A stretch of DNA of 64,000 nt. Source: Terriglobales bacterium (GTDB lineage Bacteria > Acidobacteriota > Terriglobia > Terriglobales > Acidobacteriaceae). Below are positions 39,380 to 54,214 of this stretch, in pieces. Under the pieces are notes generated by a model. That model did not search any database, was not told the origin of the DNA, and saw only the letters and a program-made list of their open reading frames with translations. The stretch lies in NCBI GenBank assembly GCA_035651655.1, contig DASRFG010000017.1, positions 1-64,000 on the forward strand, in the 5' to 3' direction. The position numbers were made by a program, and so were the translations under genes. The first letter of the stretch is position 1. Each line of letters begins with the position of its first letter.

Positions 39380-39615
39380 ACGAGTTGCGCTTCCGTGTAA
39401 TCAGCCGCATTCAGCACCAGTGGGGTGGACTCGACGTCTTAGTGAACAATGTCGGGGGATCAGATGCTCCGAACGGCGGATACAAAGCCCTCTCTGACGA
39501 CGACTGGCAAAAGGCGCTCTCAATACCTACAACAAAGGCCTTGCAAACGAAGTTGGGCCAAAGGGTGTCCGCGTCAACATGATCTCGCCCGGATTTCCTT
39601 CGCTTGAAACCTAGG
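39380..39615 (+). pseudogene. short-chain dehydrogenase remnant with internal deletion
   Basis: A piece around 39403-39510 encodes the SDR middle segment (HQWGGLDVLVNNVGG, then LSDDDWQKAL). A shifted frame from ~39520 encodes the downstream segment YNKGLANEVGPKGVRVNMIS, continuing PGF. In intact SDRs about 80 residues, including the Ser-Tyr-Lys catalytic residues, lie between these pieces; here they are missing and the frame is broken. The N-terminal nucleotide site is also not recognisable. The remnant runs straight into the last bases of a GIY-YIG gene and the L module of a repeat element. Confidence 0.8.
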
Positions 39616-39667
39616 TCCCTCGCTGCGCTCCTTCGCAAGCTCAGTCGCCCTACGCTCGGGATGACAT
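39609..39667 (+). repeat. 59-bp terminal module, L type (locus A)
   Basis: Starts with the palindrome ACCTAGGT and ends CGCTCGGGATGACAT. It is identical over its full length to the complement of 52608-52666 and differs from the R-type module only in two internal patches. The 10-odd bases just upstream (TCCTTCGCTT) also match the end of the intact GIY-YIG gene at the other locus. Confidence 0.9.
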
Positions 39668-39776
39668 TTATTTACGGGGAATGGCGAAATAGCTATTTAT
39701 GGGGAAATGGCGAAATAGCACAAAGGCCTAGCAGTCCTGACAAGCCTTCTGTCTCCACCAAATCCATCCCTTCCCA
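39668..39776 (+). repeat. 109-bp spacer between L and R modules (locus A)
   Basis: Nearly identical, in reverse orientation, to 52499-52607 and of the same length. It holds two direct copies of a ~24-bp unit (39670-39693 and 39695-39719, each ending in GGCGAAATAGC). No open frame of note. Confidence 0.88.
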
Positions 39777-39835
39777 ATGTCATCCCGAGCGTCGCAACGC
39801 TGAGCTTGCGAAGCGGCGCAGCGAGGGACCTAGGT
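39777..39835 (-). repeat. 59-bp terminal module, R type (locus A)
   Basis: An inverted relative of the L module, ending in ACCTAGGT at 39835. It is identical to the complement of 53013-53071. The core TCGCAA...TTGCGA can fold into a six-base-pair hairpin with an eight-base loop. Confidence 0.9.
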
Positions 39836-39860
39836 TTTTCTCTCCCCAGAAGGGACGCTT

Positions 39861-40022
39861 GTGTCCGGAGGGAAGTCCTACTACGTCTACATTGTCACCA
39901 ATCCTTCCCGTACGCTGTACACCGGAATTACCAATGACCTGTATCGCCGAGTCGCAGAGCACAAGCACAGAGAAATTCCCGGATTCTTGTATCCACAAAC
40001 CTTTGCCCATCATCTACACTGA
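39861..40022 (+). pseudogene. truncated GIY-YIG nuclease gene (locus A)
   Basis: Starts at GTG and encodes the first 42 residues of the intact protein at 52661-52987 with a single change (Val for Ile after LYRR). Homology then stops at about 39986 and a foreign tail of 11 residues runs to TGA. The catalytic Glu of the GIY-YIG fold is lost, so it cannot be active. The nucleotide sequence is almost unchanged over 126 bp, so the duplication is recent. Confidence 0.88.
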
Positions 40023-51817: not shown

Positions 51818-52342
51818 TCATCTCCCCGTTTTCTGTCTGCGTTCCCGCCGTTTGATGGCGGGGTGCAACTTCTTGCGTAATTTCTCTTCCACCATGTTGG
51901 GTACCAGGCCGCTTACGGAGCCACCCAAGGTCGCAATTTCCCTTACCAGGCGCGAGCTTAAGTAAGAATAAGCTTCGGCAGGCATCATGAACACAGTTTC
52001 CAACCGCGGCTCCAGCTTGCGGTTCATGAGTGCCATCTGCAGCTCGTATTCGTAGTCGCTTATCGCCCGGATGCCACGCAGTACGGCGCTGGCGTTCACC
52101 CTCATCGCGTAGTCAACCATCAGGCCGTCAAAGCTATCCACCCGGATATTAGCGTGACCCTTGGTCATTGCCCGGAGCATCTCCAGGCGCTCATCCAGAC
52201 TGAACAGGGCCTCCTTTTCCGGATTGCGCAGGATGGCCACGATCAACTCGTCGAAAATCTTGCTGCCCCGCTCGATGAGATCCAGATGCCCGTTCGTGAG
52301 CGGGTCAAAAGAGCCCGGATAGATAGCAATGACCGGCTTCAA
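51818..52342 (-). CDS. coaD: pantetheine-phosphate adenylyltransferase
   Basis: 174 residues, penultimate step of coenzyme A synthesis. AIYPGSFDPLTNGHLDLIER carries the T/HxGH nucleotidyltransferase motif; RGIRAISDYEYELQMALMNR, ETVFMMPAEAYSYLSSRLVR and EIATLGGSVSGLVPNMVEEK are the CoaD signatures. It is the first gene of the minus-strand run that continues into the aminotransferase and the mannose genes. Confidence 0.94.
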   Translation of the reverse strand: MKPVIAIYPGSFDPLTNGHLDLIERGSKIFDELIVAILRNPEKEALFSLDERLEMLRAMTKGHANIRVDSFDGLMVDYAMRVNASAVLRGIRAISDYEYELQMALMNRKLEPRLETVFMMPAEAYSYLSSRLVREIATLGGSVSGLVPNMVEEKLRKKLHPAIKRRERRQKTGR

Positions 52343-52439
52343 TCGGCCTCAGCGAAGAAATTTCGTGAAAGTGGATTCTAAACTGAGCGGCGCGTAGCAG
52401 CAAAGCGAATTGGGTGGCCGCACTTGTAGAACGAACAAG

Positions 52440-52498
52440 ACCTGGGTCCCTCGCTGCGCCGCTTCGCAGGCTCAGCGGTGCGACGCTCGGGATGACAT
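52440..52498 (+). repeat. 59-bp terminal module, R type, outer copy (locus B)
   Basis: Same length and patch pattern as the R module at 53013-53071, with three substitutions. The flank beyond it (GTCTTGTTCG on the complement) no longer matches the GIY-YIG upstream region, so this is where the second unit ends. Confidence 0.85.
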
Positions 52499-52607
52499 TG
52501 GGAAGGGACGGATTTGGGAGACAGAAGGCTTGTCAGGACTGCTAGGCCTTTTGTGCTATTTCGCCATTCCCCCATAAATAGCTATTTCGCCATTTCCCCA
52601 TAAATAA
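52499..52607 (-). repeat. 109-bp spacer (locus B)
   Basis: Reverse-orientation counterpart of 39668-39776, of equal length with a few substitutions, and holding the same two ~24-bp direct units. Confidence 0.88.
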
Positions 52608-52666
52608 ATGTCATCCCGAGCGTAGGGCGACTGAGCTTGCGAAGGAGCGCAGCGAGGGACCTAGGT
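52608..52666 (-). repeat. 59-bp terminal module, L type (locus B)
   Basis: Abuts the 3' end of the GIY-YIG gene, whose TAG stop lies inside the ACCTAGGT at its inner edge. Same length as the R module at 53013-53071, matching it at 51 of 59 positions in inverted orientation. Confidence 0.9.
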
Positions 52667-52987
52667 TTTAAGCGAAGGACTGTAAACGTGCCCCACCTCC
52701 CATTCGCGGCTGAGGTCATCCCACCTTGGATTCATTGACTCCACTAGCGCAACGCGCTTGGCTCGAGTCCACGCTTTGATTTGCTTCTCTCGATCTATGG
52801 CCTTGCGGACATCAAGAAAAATCTCGTAGTACGCCAACCGGGAGATGTGGTACTTCGCGGTAAATCCGGGAATTTCTCTGTGCTTGTGCTCTGCGATTCG
52901 GCGATACAGGTCATTGGTAATTCCGGTGTACAGCGTACGGGAAGGATTGGTGACAATGTAGACGTAGTAGGACTTCCCTCCGGACAC
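52661..52987 (-). CDS. GIY-YIG nuclease domain protein within an inverted-repeat element
   Basis: 108 residues from GTG; small solo GIY-YIG (UPF0213-like). YYVYIVT and LYTGITNDLYRR contain the GIY and YIG strands and the catalytic Arg; AIDREKQIKAW (about residues 63-73) holds the metal-binding Glu. An AGAAGGG stretch precedes the start. The gene sits between the R and L modules; its TAG stop is formed by the L module itself. Solo GIY-YIG proteins are usually of unknown role; here the surrounding repeat suggests a link with mobility. A truncated copy lies at 39861-40022. Confidence 0.88.
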   Translation of the reverse strand: MSGGKSYYVYIVTNPSRTLYTGITNDLYRRIAEHKHREIPGFTAKYHISRLAYYEIFLDVRKAIDREKQIKAWTRAKRVALVESMNPRWDDLSREWEVGHVYSPSLKT

Positions 52988-53012
52988 AAGCGTCCCTTCT
53001 GGGGAGAGAAAG

Positions 53013-53071
53013 ACCTAGGTCCCTCGCTGCGCCGCTTCGCAAGCTCAGCGTTGCGACGCTCGGGATGACAT
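53013..53071 (+). repeat. 59-bp terminal module, R type (locus B)
   Basis: Lies 25 bp upstream of the GIY-YIG start, inverted relative to the L module. Inner edge ACCTAGGT, outer edge CGGGATGACAT. It can form a hairpin with TCGCAA and TTGCGA. Confidence 0.9.
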
Positions 53072-53080
53072 TTTTTCCAA

Positions 53081-53099
53081 CCCTACGCTCGGGATGACA
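53081..53099 (+). repeat. fragment of an L-type module
   Basis: Nineteen bases identical to the outer part of the L module (CCCTACGCTCGGGATGACA). It lies 9 bp beyond the R module and 9 bp from the recA stop. It is probably the remnant of a further unit. Confidence 0.7.
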
Positions 53100-53107
53100 A
53101 CCCTAAG

Positions 53108-54214
<1,107 letters not shown>

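Follow-up and report, generated by a model that had tools for sequence, protein, structure and literature searches.

The window that we analyzed is a 64,000-nucleotide stretch of a Terriglobales bacterium contig (DASRFG010000017.1). Between two genes that we take, from their sequences, to be recA and coaD, it carries a single small GIY-YIG nuclease gene enclosed by two inverted 59-bp modules, L and R, whose inner edges lie 346 bp apart (Table 1). Realignment confirmed this arrangement as described in the initial annotation: L and the reverse complement of R are the same at 51 of 59 positions, with mismatches at positions 17, 19-23 and 38-39. Both modules have ACCTAGGT as their inner edge and TGTC as their outer end, and the TAG within ACCTAGGT of L is the stop codon of the gene, again as annotated. 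The extra R-type module and the fragment of an L-type module had also been recognized correctly. On the gene strand, the order is recA, half-module, R, gene, L, 109-bp spacer, second R and coaD, and the half-module starts 8 bases past the recA stop codon. When up to three mismatches were allowed, the 20-mer GCGCAGCGAGGGACCTAGGT was found at five places, compared with a mean of 0.00 in 100 shuffles. The two tandem units in the spacer are 96% alike. Stem pairing in the window is reduced to CCC/GGG, and the 59-nt modules folded no better than shuffled sequences (z of -0.8 for R, +0.4 for L and -0.8 for the extra R), so that a stable stem is not supported for these modules. A known RNA family was rejected, given that positions 52300-53200 had no Rfam match above the gathering scores.

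Table 1. Positions of the GIY-YIG gene, the modules and the second copy in the window
Feature	Position	Strand
GIY-YIG nuclease gene, 108 aa from GTG, TAG stop inside module L	52661-52987	-
Module R (59 bp), located upstream of the gene with its TGTC tag facing outward	53013-53071	-
Module L (59 bp), in inverse orientation to R and containing the TAG of the gene	52608-52666	+
Extra R-type module, 56/59 to R	52440-52498	-
109-bp spacer from L to extra R, with 26-bp tandem units at 52555-52606; recurs in copy 2	52499-52607	
Half-module (19 nt), the TGTC end of an L-type module	53081-53099	-
Copy 2, 3' remnant of the GIY-YIG gene, with a presumed short-chain dehydrogenase fragment fused to its left side	39596-39608	+
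Copy 2, L module, 59/59 to L	39609-39667	-
Copy 2, spacer	39668-39776	
Copy 2, R module, 59/59 to R	39777-39835	+
Copy 2, truncated GIY-YIG gene (5' part)	39861-39985	+

A second copy, truncated and permuted, lies at 39596-39985 and is absent from the initial annotation. It consists of a 3' remnant of the GIY-YIG gene, followed by L, the spacer and R, and then the beginning of the gene. Its L-spacer-R segment shows 95% identity to the first copy over 245 bp, and the segment comprising R and the gene part shows 99% identity over 210 bp. The sequence CCCGGATT is present at both of its outer ends, once in a dehydrogenase fragment and once in the gene. The fragment to the left, which we assign to the short-chain dehydrogenases by its motif, runs into the GIY-YIG remnant (39596-39611) and stops at the TAG of the L module of this copy. 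In a search for an empty site of this copy, the protein of the adjoining gene was matched in only two of 41 genomes, its own included.

The window protein is a 108-residue GIY-YIG domain, and the family assignment made in the initial annotation was borne out by a match to Pfam PF01541 (52.8 bits; cut-off, 22.6) and by an AlphaFold2 model with a mean pLDDT of 88.8, for which the best match in the PDB was 1zg2, a UPF0213 protein. UPF0213 proteins (1zg2, 1ywl) resemble the window protein in being small stand-alone GIY-YIG folds and provide the best structural match, although their sequence match is weak (E = 0.00097). Residues Y10, Y20, R30, H34 and E67, which presumably have catalytic roles, are invariant or almost invariant among relatives, so that the conserved Tyr, Arg and Glu that define the GIY-YIG endonuclease superfamily are all found in the domain.

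Next, we examined how widely the gene and the modules occur together. The window protein was matched in 32 of 61 genomes, its own included, with at most eight matches per genome, some of which are fragments of one broken gene. Flanking sequences from genomes of the same family show about 80% identity to named Acidobacteria, which agrees with placement in Acidobacteriota. In a scan of named genomes, we used the best 80 of 578 loci encoding a relative; these show 48-64% identity to the window protein and span Acidobacteria, Chloroflexi, Planctomycetota, Verrucomicrobia, Firmicutes, Bacteroidetes, Cyanobacteria, Proteobacteria, Patescibacteria and others. The matches fetched were part of those found in the 61 genomes, and only genes matched over most of the query were used; of the 62 matches in 54 loci of relatives, 49 passed this filter, as did 89 of the 90 others. 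A self-complementary module was present within 300 bp of the gene in 115 of 128 non-viral relatives (46 of 49 among relatives and 69 of 79 among named genomes) and in two of 10 viral contigs, whereas only three of 221 distant 330-bp control windows contained one. These module counts are not all independent, because adjacent tandem genes share modules. A second control using recA loci gave a module in two of 30, exactly the two that bear the GIY-YIG gene. By the strict definition, no module was found near 13 of the 128 non-viral genes, including L149 and L160 at contig ends, or near eight of the 10 viral genes, two of which have another GTCAT hairpin. Two viral contigs that are 96% identical differ by about 300 bp of repeat array beside the gene (1188-1590 of L221 and 1720-1887 of L222), and their hairpins read GTCATCCCCGCG... 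instead of GTCAT-N3-GA.

Outward-facing tags on both sides were seen for 57 of 87 genes, and the gene may occupy either spacer of a module array. The initial annotation had described the element as having a built-in stop codon. Such a stop is indeed common, given that 41 of the 104 genes with a right-hand module end inside it or at most 8 nt away; another 52 stop short of it and 11 continue through, and we therefore rejected the stop codon as a defining part.

The modules have the general form GTCAT-N3-GA...N3'-AT-C, in which N3 is CCT, CCC, TCT, TCC, TTC, GCT, CTC, TGC or one of several rarer triplets. The complementary N3' followed by AT was present in 304 of 492 motif matches, compared with 71 +/- 7.7 when N3 was shuffled (largest of 200 shuffles, 95). 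The left and right modules of one gene shared the same N3 in 61 of 87 cases, one of them viral, compared with an expectation of 16 +/- 3.3 (largest of 1000, 28). In the other 26 of 87, N3 was unequal between the two sides, and therefore the pairing of N3 seems to matter more than the letters themselves. On the protein tree, which is poorly resolved, N3 is clustered yet changes often: CCC required 15 changes compared with 25.5 when shuffled, and TTC and TCC were hardly better than shuffled. A fixed residue-to-base recognition code was rejected; residues 15-17 and 32 are weakly linked to N3 (z of about 3-4, with kinship ignored). Half-modules, in which a GTCATNNNGA start without a right arm lies 16-45 bp ahead of the next one in the same direction, occur in 26 of 136 related loci. 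There are 71 distinct cases of GTCATNNNGA without an arm and eight with one, a contrast that is partly built in because short spacings are too tight for an arm; the commonest spacing is 21 bp.

The modules also occur singly by the dozen, without the gene. The sequence TGTCATNNNGAGCG gave 29 matches in the 39-contig genome to which the window belongs, and its reversed control gave none. In the family of the window, the median number of motif copies was 49 in the 27 genomes with the gene and 16 in the 10 without it, although one of these 10, the one-contig genome G031, carries 180 motif copies with no GIY-YIG match even in a profile search. When 13 genomes were searched with the profile (the 10 matchless genomes of the family and three others), only weak or broken matches appeared, in four of them. 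The existence of module-rich genomes without the gene indicates that the repeats outlive or outnumber it. The 14 genomes of the sister family contain zero to two motif copies. Among 65 listed matches of the 124 in another genome (G027), all 14 neighbors less than 300 bp apart were arranged plus then minus, and 12 of these were 58-69 bp apart. Gene-less module pairs thus look like REP dimers.

We then compared orthologous sites with and without the gene. Of 16 matched Azospirillum records, 12 of those listed cover both flanks, and among these only Azospirillum lipoferum 4B carries a dimer-gene-dimer unit between sufB and sufC. At the four of the 11 unit-less sites that were examined, no GTC-tagged REP was found, and strain B510 has another inverted repeat there. 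For Sphingobium, 11 records covered at least 80% of the query, seven at full length and four shorter. The short site of TomTYG64 contains a single symmetric palindrome that joins the left half of one module to the right half of its partner, and that of TomTYG74 an imperfect palindrome; the two other short records have none, and nor do the four Azospirillum sites. The filled site of TomTYG73 contains an unannotated gene with a one-base gap, that is, a decaying copy. In Sinorhizobium, three strains lack the gene, and the one examined, C101, has an imperfect palindrome at the place of the gene in S. meliloti. The palindromes at gene-less sites could be products of collapse between the stem repeats or, conversely, targets into which a unit inserted. 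The empty allele of a free-standing homing endonuclease gene would be expected to keep an intact target site, and a palindrome was seen at some of the gene-less sites examined and not at others.

The home site of the window unit also varies. coaD lies downstream of recA in eight of 30 recA loci, and in a comparison between more distant genomes the gene is present there in its own genome and in G007, whose modules are different; it is absent, leaving a short gap, in G013, G010 and G018, and no gene match was found in the longer gap of G009, G022 and G002. Thus, the empty and filled sites that the initial annotation hoped would be informative do differ by presence or absence of the gene in Azospirillum, Sphingobium, Sinorhizobium and at recA-coaD. 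The target duplication that it envisaged was not seen by eye at the Azospirillum and Sphingobium junctions, although the intergenic sequence beside the units is too diverged to make this absence firm, and a simple transposon with target duplication was considered improbable. The GIY-YIG gene was also found in six Acidobacterial loci between two genes that, from their sequence, we take to be carA and carB. The modules there are diverged, and the pattern looks like long residence rather than movement. Divergence was too high to define a junction at carA-carB, as it was at another site (L064 compared with L089 and L103).

These features introduce questions concerning the relationship to known repeats. 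In RAYT/REPtron systems, an enzyme gene is flanked by its own repeats, and gene-less inverted pairs (REPINs) are dispersed in the genome. The GIY-YIG units share both features; however, RAYTs are Y1 HUH transposases with a GTAG tag, whereas the window unit has a GIY-YIG fold according to Pfam and a TGTC tag, and it therefore falls outside that class. A homologue in Neisseria gonorrhoeae (40% identity; E = 4e-15) is surrounded by 11 paired GTCATTCCC-type repeats, five before the gene and six after, which fit the dRS3 pattern ATTCCC(N8)GGGAAT. This homologue may be the published Ssn. GIY-YIG nucleases of this name, which would cut only single-stranded DNA and do so at specific sites, with a cognate Neisseria NTS repeat and thousands of homologues, were reportedly described in 2025, and the Neisseria enzyme is said to be tied to natural transformation. 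No publication on the present gene-repeat pairing was found among the matches listed in our literature search.

As described in the portions of PMC3898611 on which we draw, dRS3 (NIME) repeats are 20 bp long, have the stem ATTCCC(N8)GGGAAT and number almost 700 copies in N. meningitidis. They resemble the GIY-YIG units in having the same stem, here preceded by GTC, in forming spacer arrays and in enclosing a homologue of the window protein, but the window modules are longer and the protein identity is only 40%. Another class, the CGTC REPs, was reported to be without associated transposase genes and apparently to have no dedicated transposase (Di Nocera et al. 2013, PMC3733652, in the portions cited here). 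The repeats linked to GIY-YIG genes resemble these REPs in the CGTC/TGTC tag, the stem starting with AT, the CC tail and the occurrence of dimers. The 8-9-bp stem and 4-5-nt loop described for CGTC REPs are found in the proteobacterial relatives, whereas the window modules, at 59 bp and with a weak and diverged stem, lack them, and the five phyla named in the results of PMC3733652 exclude Acidobacteria.

To investigate these repeats further, we searched a plasmid collection with the protein; 37 records were matched, some apparently chromosomes judging by size, and 17 loci (L231-L247) were examined. A GTC-tagged perfect hairpin was present within 300 bp on at least one side at 12 of 16 loci (leaving out L237, a near-copy of L234; L235 and L246 represent one Sphingobium site), compared with one of 32 far windows. 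Clear CGTC-type hairpins adjoin the GIY-YIG genes of Azospirillum, Novosphingobium, Shinella, Neorhizobium, Rhizobium CIAT894, Sphingobium, Aeromonas and S. meliloti, so that GTC-tagged hairpins flank the gene in most proteobacterial relatives examined. No such hairpin was found at L232, L245 and L247 (Spirosoma, Sphingomonas parapaucimobilis and a second Sinorhizobium gene), and L236 of Planktothrix has GTCAT-N3-GA modules in its place. On this Planktothrix plasmid, the homologue, which shows 66% identity, has a type IIL restriction enzyme on one side and DISARM drmA on the other. The hairpins at the plasmid-set loci fit the CGTC REPs as described in the cited portions of PMC3733652. The trait that these REPs have no dedicated enzyme gene, stated there for transposases, does not hold at the 12 loci.

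The repeats themselves are therefore already published, as dRS3/NIME arrays and CGTC REPs, and the initial annotation went too far in calling the element unfamiliar; a gene-repeat pairing of the Ssn type has also reportedly been described. Its reading of the modules as terminal repeats was less apt: they are not the simple terminal repeats of a transposon but REP-like sites that also occur alone, the gene may lie in either spacer and target duplication was not seen. The annotation's overall interpretation thus stands in part, without terminal repeats, a defining stop or unfamiliarity. The part that stands, a REP-like family with a GIY-YIG enzyme instead of a Y1 enzyme, is well supported by the pairing in 115 of 128 relatives, by the REP-dimer-like pairs and by the sites with and without the gene. 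By the annotation's own criterion, widespread modules that never adjoin a GIY-YIG gene would have spoken against it, whereas copies accompanied by such a gene were found.

The gene with its modules, their association across the family, the covariation, the duplication within the genome and the presence or absence at orthologous sites were all observed, and we consider it likely that the window unit belongs to a very widespread selfish class of compact units, each consisting of a GIY-YIG endonuclease gene and its cognate REP-like sites. The cognate site would be a GTC tag followed by a short stem, in which three inner bases may vary while remaining complementary. Most commonly, the gene lies between two such sites with their tags outward, and this pair plus gene would be the autonomous form; a gene-less site pair would be the non-autonomous form, comparable to RAYT and REPIN for GTAG REPs. 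Judging from the GIY-YIG fold and the reported Ssn work, the enzyme may nick its site in folded single-stranded DNA, and repair from a donor with gene and sites could then copy the unit into other sites or genomes in a homing-like manner. The unit may be lost by collapse between short direct repeats that the two stems contain, with a single symmetric palindrome as the expected remnant. More tentatively, we raise the possibility that the CGTC-type REPs and their many GTCAT-N3 cousins across phyla form a single system that depends on a dedicated GIY-YIG nuclease, in which gene-less dimers would be non-autonomous and the nuclease would home into REP sites by reading a paired three-base element that is free to drift while it stays paired.

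We also considered the possibility that the enzyme acts as a single-strand nuclease in housekeeping or in uptake, that the repeats are fixed genomic sites or RNA hairpins and that movement occurs by host recombination and horizontal transfer, with no active homing. The residence at carA-carB in six loci, the plentiful repeats without the gene, the fact that collapse at short direct repeats requires no enzyme and the reported tie of the Neisseria enzyme to natural transformation all agree with this notion. However, the gene is patchy and multi-copy, with 48-64% identity to the window protein across phyla, an entire unit has been gained in one Azospirillum, and the gene almost always adjoins its own sites; we therefore regard this explanation as unlikely. 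Less probable still is that the modules are mobilized in trans by a transposase elsewhere in the genome and that the GIY-YIG gene is cargo. In favor of this reading, the gene is bounded by inverted modules, and PMC3733652 (in the portions cited) suggests that CGTC REPs may be mobilized by a broad spectrum of transposases; against this, a single gene family adjoins the modules in many phyla, as seen in the neighbors surveyed at GIY-YIG loci, and the junctions examined had no visible target duplication. Although both full copies are on one contig, 13 kb apart, and no further match in the 39-contig genome to a 67-base module query exceeds 23 bases, the equal anatomy in the relatives and the existence of empty orthologous sites make it very improbable that the window pair arose when an immobile intergenic repeat region was duplicated locally, with symmetry being incidental.

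REP repeats reach high copy numbers in many bacteria, and of their two large classes the CGTC REPs had no named dedicated enzyme in 2013, according to the portions of PMC3733652 on which we draw. With a gene adjoining such sites across phyla, the question of what spreads REPs becomes directly testable, and the many natural nuclease-site pairs would allow site selection by a small GIY-YIG enzyme to be studied. If the CGTC-type REPs and their cousins do form one system, the enzyme behind this REP system would be one that cuts DNA but does not itself join it.
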